This document shows positions 25,185-30,947 of a DNA stretch of 41,594 nucleotides, in pieces. The stretch is taken from NCBI RefSeq assembly GCF_028687955.1, contig NZ_JAQTZC010000012.1, positions 1 to 41,594 of the forward strand, written 5' to 3'. Within the stretch, counting starts at the first letter, position 1. Every line of letters starts with the position of its first letter. The stretch comes from Acidocella sp. (lineage in GTDB: Bacteria > Pseudomonadota > Alphaproteobacteria > Acetobacterales > Acetobacteraceae). Below the pieces are notes generated by a model. The model was not told where the DNA came from, did no database searches, and saw only the letters and a program-made list of their open reading frames with translations. Both the position numbers and the translations under genes were made by a program.

Positions 25185-26822
25185 ATGTCAGACCAGATGG
25201 AACCGCGCGAGGCGATGGAGTTCGATGTCCTGGTGGTCGGCGCCGGCCCTGCCGGCCTATCCGCTGCTGTCAAGCTCAAACAGCTCAACCCGGAGCTTTC
25301 CGTCTGCGTGGTGGAAAAAGGCGGCGAGATCGGTGCCCACACCCTCTCCGGCGCGGTGCTGGAGCCGCGCGCCCTGATGGAACTCTTCCCCGAATGCGAC
25401 CCTTCGTTGATCCCGCTCGCCACCCCGGTGTCCGAGGATCGCTTCATGTATCTCACCGCGGCCAAGGCCTACACCTCGCCCATCATCCCACCGACAATGG
25501 AGAACCACGGCAACTACATCGTTTCGCTCGGCAATGTGGTGCGCTGGCTCGGGCAGCAGGCGGAAGAACTCGGCGTGGAGATCTACCCCGGTTTTGCCGC
25601 GGCTGAGGTGCTCTTCGAGGGTGAGCGAGTTGCGGGCGTGGCCACCGGCGACATGGGCATCGGCAAGGACGGCAAGCCCACCGGCAACTTCCAGCGCGGC
25701 ATGGAACTGCGCGCCACCTATACAATCTTCGCCGAAGGCTGCCGCGGCTCGCTCTCCAAGCAATTGATGACCAAATTCAATCTCAACGCCAAAAACGACC
25801 CGCAGACCTACGGCATCGGCATCAAGGAACTCTGGGAGGTCAAACCCGAACACTTCAAAAAAGGCCTCACCATCCACAGTGTCGGCTGGCCCTTAAAGTC
25901 CGACACCTATGGCGGTTCGGCCATCTATTTCTTCGGCGAAAACCTCATGGCCTACTGCTTCGTCGTTGGGCTGGACTACAAAAACCCCTATCTCTCGCCC
26001 TTCCAGGAAATGCAGCGATCGAAAACCCACCCGGCCATCGCGCCGTTCTTCGAGGGCGCCAAGCGCATCTCCTACGGCGCGCGCGCGCTCAATGAGGGCG
26101 GCTTTCAGTCCCTGCCGAAACTCACCTTCCCCGGTGGCGTACTCATTGGCTGCGCCGCGGGCACCCTTAACGTGCCCAAGATCAAAGGCAGCCACACCGC
26201 GATGAAATCCGGCATGGTCGCCGCCGAAGCCATCGCCGAGGCCCTGGCCGGTGAGCGCCCGGACGAAGTCACCGCTTATGCCACCAAGCTGGAAGCCAGC
26301 TGGGTCTGGCCCGAGCTGCACAGCGTGCGCAATGTGCGCCCCGGTTTCGCCAAATGGGGTTTTTACGGCGGCATGATCAACGCCGCCATCGACACCTACA
26401 TCTTCCGCGGCAAGGCCCCCTGGACCCTGAAAAACCACGCCGACCATCTGCAGCTCAAAAAAGCCAAGGACTGCCAGCCGATCGACTACCCCAAACCCGA
26501 TGGCAAGATCACCTTTGACCGGCTGTCCTCCGTCTTCCTCTCCAACACTAACCACGAGGAAAACCAGCCGCCCCACCTCACCCTGCTCGATGCCAGCAAG
26601 GCCATCAGCGTCAACTATAAAGAGTACGCCAGCCCGGAGACCCGCTATTGCCCGGCTGGCGTGTACGAGATCGTCGGCGAGGAGGCAGGCAACCCGCAGC
26701 TGCAAATTAACGCGCAAAACTGCGTCCACTGCAAAACCTGCGACATCAAGGACCCCACCCAGAACATCAACTGGGTCGTCCCCGAAGGTGCTGGCGGCCC
26801 CAACTATCCGGGCGGGATGTGA
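25185..26822 (+). CDS. Electron transfer flavoprotein-ubiquinone oxidoreductase
   Basis: A membrane-associated flavoprotein that passes electrons from reduced ETF (fatty-acid and amino-acid oxidation) to ubiquinone. The 545 residues begin with the FAD-binding [17 protein letters not shown] (GAGPAG 19-24), continue with [17 protein letters not shown] and the typical GPLN-like ubiquinone domain. They end with a [4Fe-4S] domain carrying RYCPAGVYE, then [19 protein letters not shown] and [14 protein letters not shown], the standard ETF-QO ending. AGGAGGTAACGAG ATG is a strong start signal. The gene is intact; transposon debris begins within 30 bp of its stop. No etfAB in the window. Confidence 0.95.
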
Positions 26823-26848
26823 GCACCAGTCAGTAAGGCGAAGGGGCT

Positions 26849-27065
26849 TTGTTCCCTCGCACAGTGATATTAACCGCCCAGGACCGCACCAAGCTGGAAG
26901 CAGTTGTCGCCGATCGGAACAGCCCGAAAAAACACGTCTGGCGGGGGCAGATCATCCTGCTGACCGCCGACGGCTGCGGCACGGACGCGATCATGCGCAG
27001 CAGTGGTACCAGCAAAACGTCTGTCTGGCGCTGGCAGGAGCGCTTCATGACCGAGGGCGTGGCCA
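26849..27065 (+). mobile_element. IS630-family transposase, N-terminal fragment
   Basis: The frame reads VILTAQDRTKLEAVVADRNS, then KHVWRGQIILLTADGCGTDA and KTSVWRWQERFMTEGVA, the helix-turn-helix start of IS630-family transposases. Similarity stops abruptly after GVA near 27062, where IS66 sequence takes over. The DDE domain is lost. The original start is TTG 26849 or GTG 26864. Confidence 0.75.
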
Positions 27066-27600
27066 TATGGAACAAGGCTATTTTTGGGTGGCCGCACGGG
27101 ATGATCGCGCCTGCGGCGGCGCCGATCCGCCGACGGTGATTTATCAATATGCCACAGGCCGGGCCAAACGCCATGCCGATGCTTTGCTCGGCGGGTACCG
27201 AGGGATCGTGCAATGCGATGGCTACAATGCCTACAAGCAACTTGCCGGTCCGGCGCAGGATGATGCGCCGATGGCGCTGGCATTTTGCTGGAGCCACGTG
27301 AGGCGCGGTTTTTATGATCTGGCCACGCGCCTCGCTAAGCGCCAGGAACTCAGCCGGCTGATGGTGACGGATCTACGTCTTTGATTTGAGGCACAGCTTA
27401 AGACTTTGCGAGCCCGCAGTCCTATGGCCGAAGTAATCCGTTATTCACTGAACCACTGGAACGGCCTGGAGCAATTCCTTGCCGATGGAACCATCGAAAT
27501 CGACAACAACATTACTGAATTACTGAGCGCAGCATGCGCCCCAACGAATTGTAAAAAGAGAACTCGCTGTTCGTGGGCTCGGACGCATGGACACATAAAC
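27066..27600 (+). mobile_element. IS66-family transposase remnant with stops and deletion
   Basis: The frame reads QGYFWVAARDDRACGGADPP, then GGYRGIVQCDGYNAYKQLAG and LAFCWSHVRRGFYDLA, the IS66 (TnpC) catalytic region. A TGA at 27382 follows. The same frame resumes with FEAQLKTLRARSPMAEVIRY, LNHWNGLEQFLADGTIEIDN and NIT, then a frameshift leads to RSMRPNEL, a TAA, and ENSLFVGSDAW. About 50 residues between the two parts are missing compared with the family. It is a dead element, fused to the IS630 fragment. Confidence 0.8.
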
Positions 27601-27707
27601 GCACCGAGATGGAGTTAACGAACCGCCACCGCTTCCTAATTCCGCACCAAAGCCGACATCTTTTTTGCTGGGAACGTTTGCGTTCGGTCAAGAAATGCCG
27701 GCAAGGC

Positions 27708-27743
27708 GGCTTTGCAGGGCTCCGGCCGGAGCCCTGCAAAGCC
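27708..27743. terminator. 36-bp perfect palindrome after the desaturase gene
   Basis: GGCTTTGCAGGGCTCCGG and its exact reverse complement abut with no loop (27708-27725 / 27726-27743), 6 bp beyond the desaturase stop. It is a strong candidate for ending leftward transcription although no T tract follows. It could also come from the neighbouring insertion-sequence debris. Confidence 0.6.
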
Positions 27744-27749
27744 AATGGC

Positions 27750-28676
27750 CTATTCAGCCGGAACAATGCCTTCGGAATCTTTCGCATGACGGTAGGCGCG
27801 GTGCGATTCGATATTCTCCGGCTCAAGACCAAATGCAGTCTGGCGGGGGATGTTGTGACGGTTGATCTCGTCGAACTTCACGAAATAGGCCTTGTGCATC
27901 CGGTAGAACGGGATCTCCGGATAGAGGTGATGGACCAGGTGATAGTTCTGATAGACCAGCACCGGGGTCAGCAGCCACTCCCAGCCGAAACGCATGGTTG
28001 TCGCCATGTAGGGATCCTCATCCTGCGCAACCAGCGCGGGATAGTGCGGCAGGATCACGAAGACGATGGCAATAAGGAACAAAGTGATCCGCGACGGCAC
28101 AAACCAGAGCATGAACAGGTCAAGGCCATAGCCCAGGTACATAGCGGCGGCGAACAGGGCGGCCAGGAACGAATAGTACACGATCAGTTCAGTGCCATGC
28201 CGCTTGCGCACAGTCTGGCCATACTTGATGAAGTAGTAGATGTAGGCAGCATCAAAAAACGACCAGCGAAATGGCACCTGCCATAAGGGCGATTCATGCT
28301 CGAAGCGGTCAGGATCCATCGGCCCGTTGGCAAAGCTGTGATGCTTGTTGTGCACCCAGCGAAGCAGCACCATGGGTGCGTAGGGAAACAGGAAGAACAG
28401 CCCGATTGCCCCGATTGATTCGTTCACCCATTTGATGCGCGAGAGCGACATATGCGCCGCATCGTGAATCACGCTGAACAGGAGATAGGTGATGAGGCCA
28501 TTGGCAATGGCGCCAGTCCACAACGGAATCTTACCCGTCAGTGCCAGATACCAGACCCCGCCGATGCCGGCCATCGAGACGACGAACAGCAGGAATGTCG
28601 GCACGGCGAGAAGAGGCGGCTGGCGCAGCTGCTCGAAATAATCTTTTGTATTCTGCGGGAATGCGCTCACGTTCAT
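27750..28676 (-). CDS. Membrane fatty acid desaturase family protein
   Basis: A 308-residue di-iron membrane enzyme of the FA_desaturase family, inserting double bonds (or hydroxyls) into acyl chains or related lipids. All three histidine boxes are present: HDAAH, HNKHH and YHLVHHLYP, with four to five hydrophobic segments between them. The start ATG 28676 follows AGAGAGGTGA. By eye its GC content is lower than the flanking housekeeping genes. On one side lies transposon debris and on the other a hairpin-rich gene-free region, which together suggest acquisition by transfer. The exact substrate and position specificity cannot be inferred; carotenoid or hopanoid-like substrates are not excluded. 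Confidence 0.85.
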   Translation of the reverse strand: MNVSAFPQNTKDYFEQLRQPPLLAVPTFLLFVVSMAGIGGVWYLALTGKIPLWTGAIANGLITYLLFSVIHDAAHMSLSRIKWVNESIGAIGLFFLFPYAPMVLLRWVHNKHHSFANGPMDPDRFEHESPLWQVPFRWSFFDAAYIYYFIKYGQTVRKRHGTELIVYYSFLAALFAAAMYLGYGLDLFMLWFVPSRITLFLIAIVFVILPHYPALVAQDEDPYMATTMRFGWEWLLTPVLVYQNYHLVHHLYPEIPFYRMHKAYFVKFDEINRHNIPRQTAFGLEPENIESHRAYRHAKDSEGIVPAE

Positions 28677-28989
28677 TAGTCACCTCTCTTAAATTTCTTA
28701 AACCTTGTTTTTGTTTTCCGGAGCGAAGCATAGCCTCTGGCTTACCCCCCCCGCGCACAGGACTGTAGTTCAGAGTCAGCGAGAACCGCCGTAATCCCAC
28801 ATCCCGCACGCCAAAAATCTGAATGATATTACCAGCTCACTGGATAATATGCAATGGCGATCGGCCGCCTATCCAGGAAATGTCGACTTGTTTGGAACCA
28901 AACGCCGCCCGCCAAATTTTGTCAAACATTTCCGTTCCATGAACAACACGGCAATATTCATTGCTGGCGCCGCGGCACCGCAAATTATT
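28677..28989. other. Gene-free region upstream of the desaturase gene
   Basis: About 310 bp with the desaturase ribosome-binding site at its left end. A minus-strand reading RFSLTLNYSPVRG looks like a protein tail but has no recognisable family and no start. No tRNA or strong hairpin is seen. Composition is less GC-rich than the neighbouring genes. Confidence 0.5.
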
Positions 28990-29053
28990 TTATACCAGCC
29001 CGCCAAGAGCTTGACTCTCTGGATTTGGTGGCGGGCTGGTATAAGCTCTTGAT
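28990..29053. repeat. 16-bp inverted repeat with interleaved second repeat
   Basis: TTATACCAGCCCGCCA (28990-29005) pairs perfectly with TGGCGGGCTGGTATAA (29029-29044). AAGAGCTT (29005-29012), inside its loop, is complementary to AAGCTCTT (29043-29050) beyond its right arm. The A-B-A'-B' order allows a pseudoknot in RNA. No coding sequence covers it. Confidence 0.8.
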
Positions 29054-29056
29054 TTT

Positions 29057-29086
29057 GCGCGCGGCCGCCCCACCAGCCCCGCGCGC
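29057..29086. repeat. GC-rich hairpin, 8-bp stem
   Basis: GCGCGCGG (29057-29064) and CCGCGCGC (29079-29086) are exact inverted repeats with a 14-nt loop. It is the middle of three consecutive structures. Confidence 0.6.
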
Positions 29087-29116
29087 ATACCAGTCAGCCT
29101 TAAGGCTGACTGGTAT
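29087..29116. repeat. 30-bp perfect palindrome
   Basis: ATACCAGTCAGCCTT is followed directly by its exact reverse complement. It shares the outer ATACCAG and inner GCC with the stem at 28990-29044, so the two may be copies of one hairpin type. It may act as a bidirectional terminator, a repeat element or part of a structured RNA. Confidence 0.8.
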
Positions 29117-29326
29117 TAATTGCAAATTCAACCACTTTTGTCCAAAATGAGTGTCATCAACAAGCATACGCAACAACAACACGAACTGTTGCCGGGGGCC
29201 GGGGGCGGCGCCACCATTATCAACGATTAATCAATCTGGGTCTTTAACATTGTGCGCGAGCTGGTTATTTCCGCCGCCGGACGCGACGCCACCCTGCCCT
29301 GGCCCCAGAAATCTGAACGTACCACT
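29117..29326. other. Gene-free stretch between the hairpins and argB
   Basis: 210 bp downstream of argB. A 27-codon ORF (29147-29230) and an open frame after its stop have no ribosome-binding site and no recognised family. Nothing else is supported. Confidence 0.5.
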
Positions 29327-30223
29327 CTATTTGTGGATCATCGTCCCGATGCCGCCATCGGTGAAAAGCTCCAGCAGCAGCGCATGCGGCACCCTTCCAT
29401 CAAGGATCGTCGCCCCTTTGACCCCGAGCGTGACGGCCTCCATGCAGGTCTCCACCTTCGGGATCATCCCACCCGAGATGGTGCCATCGGCGATCAGCGC
29501 CTGGATCTGCGCCAGCGATAAATCCGGCATCAGTTTTTTGGTCTTGTCCAGCACACCGGGAACATCGGTGAGCATCAGCAGCCGGTTGGCGTTCAACGCG
29601 CCGGCGATGGCGCCCGCCGCCGTATCGGCATTGATATTATAAGTCTCGCCATTCTCGCCGGTGCCAACGGGCGCGATCACGGGGATCAGCCCGGCGCCGG
29701 TCAGCGCATGGATCACGCGCGTGTCGATGAAGGCGGGCTCGCCGACAAAGCCAAGATCCAGCACGCTCTCAATATGCGAATCCGGGTCCTTCTTGGTGCG
29801 GTGCATTTTGCGCGCGCGGATCAACCCGCCATCCTTGCCCGAAATCCCCACCGCCAGCGCGCCGGCGCGGTTGATCAACCCCGCCACCTGCTTGTTCACG
29901 CTGCCTGCCAGGACCATTTCCACCACCTCGACCATGGCGGCATCGGTCACGCGCAGCCCATCAATGAAGTTGGATTTAATCGCCAGCCGGTCCAGCATGG
30001 CGTTAATCTGCGGCCCGCCGCCATGCACGATCACCGGATTGATGCCGACCTGCTTGAGCAACGCGATGTCGCGGCCGAATTCGCCCGCCAGAATATCCTC
30101 ACCCATCGCATGCCCGCCGTATTTCACCACGATGGTGGCGCCCGCATAGCGGCGCAGAAACGGCAGCGCGCTGGCGACGATATGCGCCTGGGCGGCGGCG
30201 GATTTCAGCTCCTCGGTATTCAT
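29327..30223 (-). CDS. argB: Acetylglutamate kinase
   Basis: Phosphorylates N-acetylglutamate, the second step of arginine biosynthesis, in the cytoplasm. The 298 residues show the amino-acid kinase motifs VVKYGGHAM (lysine for phosphate), [10 protein letters not shown], an [14 protein letters not shown] region, the [15 protein letters not shown] nucleotide site and [12 protein letters not shown] 30223 is preceded by AGGAG at 5 nt; the adjacent ATG 30226 is also possible. It is the last gene of the rpmH-rnpA-yidD-yidC-engB-argB run, about 25 bp after engB. Confidence 0.95.
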
Positions 30224-30248
30224 CATGGCTCCTGGAAAAACTCTGCTG

Positions 30249-30947
30249 CTAAATAAAGCCCGCGATGCTGGCGCGCAAATCATCCATGCCAAGCCCCGTG
30301 GTGCTGGAAGTGGTGAGCACGAAGGGCAGCGCCGCCGGGTGCTCCTTCGCCAGCGCGGTGATCTCGTCCTGCTTGCGGCGCAGCGCCGCCGGCTTCACGT
30401 CATCAGCCTTGGTCAACACCAGCTGGTAGGCCACCGCCGACTGGTCGAGCAACTCCATCACCACCTCATCGGCGGGTTTAAGCTCGATGCGCGCGTCCAG
30501 CAGCAGAAACACCCGGCGCAGGTTCGGCCGCCCGCGCAAATAATCCAGCATCAGCCCCTGCCAGTCACGCTTGATGGCTTTGGGCGCCTCGGCATAGCCG
30601 TAGCCCGGCATGTCCACCAGCACGATGGGCGCGGATTCCATTTGGAAGAAATTCAACTGCCGGGTACGCCCCGGCTGGTGTGACACGCGCGCCAGCGCCT
30701 TGCGCCCCGTCAGCGCGTTCAGCAACGAGGATTTACCAACGTTTGAGCGTCCCGCGAAGGCGACCTCAATCCCGTTGGGCGCGGGCAGATGGTCGAGCGC
30801 CTGCGCCGCATAGAAAAATTCGCAATGCGAGGCGAAGAGTTTCCGCCCCGCCTCCAGTTGCTCCGAGCTGAAAGTCCCGGCCGCGAAAACTATGTTTTCG
30901 CCGTTACCGCCGCCCGTGGGTTGCCCGCCTGGCGCATGATCAGCCAT
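30249..30947 (-). CDS. engB: Ribosome biogenesis GTPase EngB/YihA
   Basis: A 232-residue GTPase needed for assembly of the large ribosomal subunit. G1 GRSNVGKSS (66-74), a G2 Thr in [11 protein letters not shown]3 DMPGYGYA and G4 TKADD are all clear. The N-terminal extension (about 1-45) is longer than in E. coli but usual in alphaproteobacteria. The start is ATG 30947, which overlaps the 3' end of yidC by 58 bp; the ORF-track start at 30977 only increases the overlap. Co-transcribed with yidC and argB. Confidence 0.93.

Follow-up and report, generated by a model that had tools for sequence, protein, structure and literature searches.

Bacterial miniature inverted-repeat transposable elements (MITEs, as defined in PMC3733652), such as ERIC, RUP, NEMIS/Correia, Nezha and QMITE2, are non-coding elements of 70-300 bp that carry inverted terminal repeats, duplicate their target, reach a high copy number and lie mostly outside genes (PMC10969869). 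The insertion sequences of the IS1031 group, in the IS5 family, insert at the trinucleotide TNA, giving a 3-bp repeat, and have ends of the GAACCTG type (PMC12016507). REP sequences and BIMEs, with their RAYT transposases, are small palindromes arranged as mosaic modules, extragenic and downstream of genes; REPs of the CGTC type are reported to be absent from Acetobacteraceae (PMC3733652).

The element described here lies in a contig of Acidocella sp. (Acetobacteraceae; NZ_JAQTZC010000012.1), analysed over a stretch of 41,594 nucleotides that is called the window hereafter. It shares all the above features of MITEs, but both of its ends are complete palindromes that are also found solo, it harbors a third, sequence-conserved GC hairpin, and its end hairpins take on a new sequence in each species on an otherwise unchanged plan. 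With the IS1031 group it has in common the 3-bp TNA target duplication, whereas its ends read TACCAG, and with REP/BIME sequences the small palindromes, the mosaic organization and the extragenic location downstream of genes. The three hairpins very probably constitute an undescribed MITE family, likely moved in trans by a TNA-duplicating transposase that we infer to be of the IS5/IS1031 type; no description of the element, or of MITEs in Acetobacteraceae, was found in the open-access papers searched. It defines a miniature mobile family across Acetobacteraceae, with a recent burst in the lineage of the window, and offers a natural experiment in which transposon ends change their sequence while keeping their shape.

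Anatomy of the element

The three hairpins occupy positions 28990-29118 of the window, between a fatty-acid desaturase gene (27750-28676, minus strand) and argB (29327-30292, minus strand), in a stretch devoid of any credible gene, as the first-pass annotation had proposed. The repeats that it listed were all recovered: a 16-bp inverted repeat whose arms (28990-29005 and 29029-29044) are 100% complementary and separated by a loop of 23 nt; an interleaved repeat, 9 bp long by our reading, pairing CAAGAGCTT (29004-29012) with AAGCTCTTG (29043-29051); an 8-bp GC stem, GCGCGCGG/CCGCGCGC (29057-29064 and 29079-29086); and a perfect 30-bp palindrome (29087-29116). Folding analysis of this stretch gave a z-score of -9.2 as DNA and of -7.8 to -8.5 as RNA, compared to -0.8 and -0.5 for neighbouring 129-bp stretches, which is far beyond chance.

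Sequence similarity between 40 near-full-length copies stops at positions 28993 and 29115, which delimits a complete miniature element of 123 bp (TACCAG...CTGGTA, plus strand) without coding capacity, the open reading frames that overlap it being short and not conserved. Its terminal inverted repeats read TACCAGYCMGCC at both ends, and it is framed by a TTA target-site duplication of the TNA type, the left copy at 28992 and the two preceding positions (28990-28992), the right copy at 29116-29118, both assigned from the sequence and from the duplication statistics of the 40 copies. Four parts follow one another on the plus strand. Module A, the 5′ end hairpin ATACCAGCCCGCC...GGCGGGCTGGTAT (28992-29042), is also found solo and inverted, and is swapped for other self-complementary sequences in relatives. 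It is followed by the linker AAGCTCTTGATTTT (29043-29056), which has related counterparts in other species, T-rich at their end, and by module M (29057-29086), a GC-rich hairpin with a strongly conserved interior, GCGCGCGGCCGCCCCACCAGCCCCGCGCGC. Module B (29087-29116) forms the 3′ end and corresponds to the perfect palindrome ATACCAGTCAGCCTTAAGGCTGACTGGTAT; it is found solo too, and symmetrical variants of the form ATACCTG...CAGGTAT exist. The arrangements observed include A solo, B solo, A-M-A, A-B and inverted A-M-B.

The first-pass annotation had recognized the separate repeats but overlooked that they form a single transposable unit, present in dozens of copies with target duplications. 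Two of its suggestions, repeated palindromic elements and tandem transposon-end copies, come close to this picture when taken jointly, the element being a mosaic of palindromes, dispersed over the genome, with ends that act as transposon ends.

Dispersed copies, target duplications and empty sites

When a 341-bp query centred on the hairpins was compared with the rest of the genome, only its middle part matched elsewhere, and always over the same ~127 bp. The genome contains 57 occurrences of the pattern ATACCAGN{2,30}CTGGTAT and 0 of the reversed control. The near-full-length copies, defined by a match to at least 119 of 125 bp, are 94-100% identical. Within the 0.29 Mb retrieved around the copies, one or more modules are present at 74 sites, these copies included; all copy numbers are minima, and the genomes compared are drafts or MAGs. 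Many contigs of the draft terminate at or near a copy; the presence of dozens of nearly identical 125-bp sequences may be the reason why so many of them end at the element. A second dispersed repeat, (T)AGAGCCTGATTGGTTTAAGTGTGA, adjoins several copies (flanks in L084, L092, L083 and L052), and the genome holds more than one palindromic repeat family.

Alignment of the 40 copies revealed a left flank of the form TN followed by ATACCAG and a right flank in which CTGGTAT is followed by NA. A T is found at position -2 in all 40 copies and an A at position +2 in 39, and the two sides share the central base of TNA in 34 of them, compared to a shuffle mean of 15.1 and with none of 100000 shuffles as high. 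The element is flanked by a 3-bp TNA duplication; the flanks of the six other copies do not match, and solo B copies usually lack the duplication. Several solo B copies (L067:7723-7752, L078:4735-4764, L071:5767-5796, L073:2047-2076 and L077:131-160) are nested in longer perfect palindromes, five to seven additional flanking bases being complementary, unlike in the composite copies. At least one of these connects two sequences that are not adjacent in the sister genome G010; such palindromes may reflect genuine fold-back events or else joins made by the assembly at a palindrome. Regarding the genomic setting, among the 29 copies for which a rough gene caller assigned both neighbours, 16 lie between convergent genes and one between divergent genes. 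This convergent-rich placement is the usual one for extragenic repeats that are tolerated downstream of genes.

The sister genome G010, whose orthologous DNA is ~95% identical, contained one near-full copy in the 0.98 Mb scanned, compared to 40 in the window genome. Two composite sites are cleanly empty there: at L052:13504, the window genome reads CTCA-element-TCAG and G010 reads CTCAG, with exactly one TCA, and at L059:1997, G010 retains one TAA. At three other composite sites (L093:1989, L089:2033 and L107:2079), G010 also lacks the element but differs slightly in the local sequence; L094:1473 appears empty on the basis of short matches in its flanks. The site of a partial B-M copy (L074) is likewise empty, as is the position of an A-B pair located after the terminator of a bL33-type gene (rpmG, by reading of its translation). 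No occupied orthologous site was found in G010 among the sites compared in these 0.98 Mb. The burst in the window lineage is recent, with dozens of copies there and, so far, a single one detected in a sister that is 95% identical. At another locus (L057:2868-2918), the target of a solo A is occupied in G010 (L326) by a different sequence of ~85 bp, perhaps another type of end hairpin inserted at the same site.

None of the 30 other genomes searched in the genus contained a match to the fatty-acid desaturase, and argB was therefore used as the anchor for comparing the window site. In G010, an ETF-QO gene lies immediately beside argB, and the entire 2.5-kb segment comprising transposase remnants, the desaturase and the element (window 26822-29326) is missing. 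The remnants in this segment are a fragment of a helix-turn-helix (HTH) transposase, IS630-like by our reading, and an IS66-like fragment. Near-identical dispersed copies, defined ends, TNA duplications and the empty sites of G010 show that the element is mobile and non-autonomous.

A common plan in relatives

Module M, the most widespread part of the element, was detected in 32 of 299 genomes and in 12 of the 65 genera of the order, with no occurrence in the reversed control. Its interior reads GGCCGCCCC(A/G)CCANCCCC, and in the stem variant GCGCGTGG/CCACGCGC the changes compensate each other. When bacterial genomes were scanned for an M with ATACCA after it, 68 loci were returned. All of them belong to Acetobacteraceae or to MAGs labelled no more precisely than Rhodospirillales or Proteobacteria, and the genomes concerned include a Rhodopila MAG, Neoroseomonas alkaliterrae and an Acidocella MAG. 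Two other genomes, G020 and G021, are also full of the element. Relatives display the same succession of end hairpin, linker, M and end hairpin, with unrelated inner sequences in the end hairpins, and target duplications were also observed at copies from LL2.bin69, the Rhodopila MAG and Neoroseomonas alkaliterrae.

In 12 copies, the arms of the two end hairpins pair at 123 of 132 and 139 of 144 positions, the best of 10000 shuffles reaching 114 and 132, respectively, and compensatory changes are present in all three stems. The region is thus neither single-copy nor devoid of covariation: the genome search for the stem and the covariance comparison of relatives, both proposed in the first-pass annotation, yielded dozens of copies and arms that covary across species.

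Tandem M hairpins without end hairpins were observed at regular spacing at G023 loci (~44 bp), at G020:C5:9995-10104 (~40 bp) and at G215:C26:17068-17243 (~73 bp). In a plasmid collection, a partial, unannotated match to the element was found on a plasmid of Rhodovastum atsumiense (NZ_OW485602.1:49379-49459). Among 26 copies of the G021 elements (for example L189, L191 and L212), 18 have, immediately inside the 5′ hairpin, a base that complements the outer target base, compared to 8.7 expected by shuffling (p ~7e-5).

Alternative readings and mobilization

Strong folding predicted on both strands, compensatory changes in the three stems and a location mostly downstream of genes are what one would expect of a conserved structured RNA, or of a regulatory element acting at the RNA level (small RNA, mRNA stabiliser or part of a 3′ UTR), that has three hairpins and possibly a pseudoknot. 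We consider this reading, which the first-pass annotation had put forward as a small structured RNA with a pseudoknot layout, very improbable. No Rfam family was matched, the window yielding only three tRNAs; the copies lie at unrelated loci with clear target duplications and empty sites; and palindromic ends would covary equally if DNA were the recognized form. The interleaved pairing of CAAGAGCTT with AAGCTCTTG is not conserved either, being missing from the elements of G020, G021, Rhodopila and Neoroseomonas, and neither the RNA nor the pseudoknot received positive support. The GC-rich hairpins, often located between convergent genes and in one case present as a copy pair directly after the rpmG terminator, also recall a dispersed set of intrinsic transcription terminators, an interpretation that is scarcely credible: a T-run after the hairpins is absent on both strands, the T-rich stretch comes before M and would thus form an A-run on the opposite strand, and at the rpmG locus a separate terminator, which does have a T-run, precedes the insertion.

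Module M, short, hairpin-forming and dispersed, in tandem in places and solo in many genomes, might otherwise be taken for the REP unit of REP/BIME elements whose transposase is a RAYT (tyrosine HUH) enzyme, as the mostly extragenic location, often between convergent genes, and the presence of RAYT-like genes in four of the 31 genomes of the genus would suggest. This origin is nevertheless unlikely to a high degree. Reading of M and its flanks revealed neither the GTAG nor the CGTC tag (REP definition in PMC3733652), and the copies have no linked RAYT. The four RAYT-like genes of relatives have no adjacent repeats, and RAYT (PF01797) is absent from the window genome and from G021, both full of elements. 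HUH transposition produces no target duplication, unlike the insertions described here. The duplications and the lack of RAYT in these two genomes thus make an HUH/RAYT enzyme unlikely.

For the MITE family, we propose that a transposase acting in trans would cut the TACCA...TGGTA ends, and that the element would then be inserted at a TNA trinucleotide, which would be duplicated. This enzyme would probably be of the DDE type found in IS5/IS1031, since TNA is the target of the IS1031 group. Each end may be recognized as a short TACCA sequence combined with a hairpin, and insertions would survive chiefly downstream of genes, where they should do least harm.

None of the loci searched, the IS5-type loci of the genus included, held a transposase gene bounded by TACCA ends, and no autonomous element with these ends was detected in ~2.1 Mb of loci; a long-range paired-end search returned only two-MITE pairs or hits near chance level. 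Searches for PF01609, PF13586 and PF13359 in the window genome revealed one remnant and one unrelated ISAs1-like gene but no intact IS5-type transposase, and the two families searched in G020, PF13586 and PF13359, gave no hit, despite the abundance of the element there. Multi-copy insertion sequences are often missing from draft assemblies, so that the absence of a partner transposase is weak evidence against this proposal. A solo A beside an IS5-type transposase remnant (L060) was considered as an insertion sequence end and rejected, its flanks being unmatched.

A bolder and rather doubtful extension of the MITE reading is that mobilization itself, through cruciform recognition or fold-back correction, keeps the end hairpins self-complementary, a DDE-type transposase reading their shape together with TACCA and not a fixed terminal sequence. 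If true, this would explain the species-specific pairs of end hairpins on one common plan, the symmetrical substitutions such as those of the ATACCTG...CAGGTAT variants, and the complementarity between the inside base and the target base in the G021 copies.
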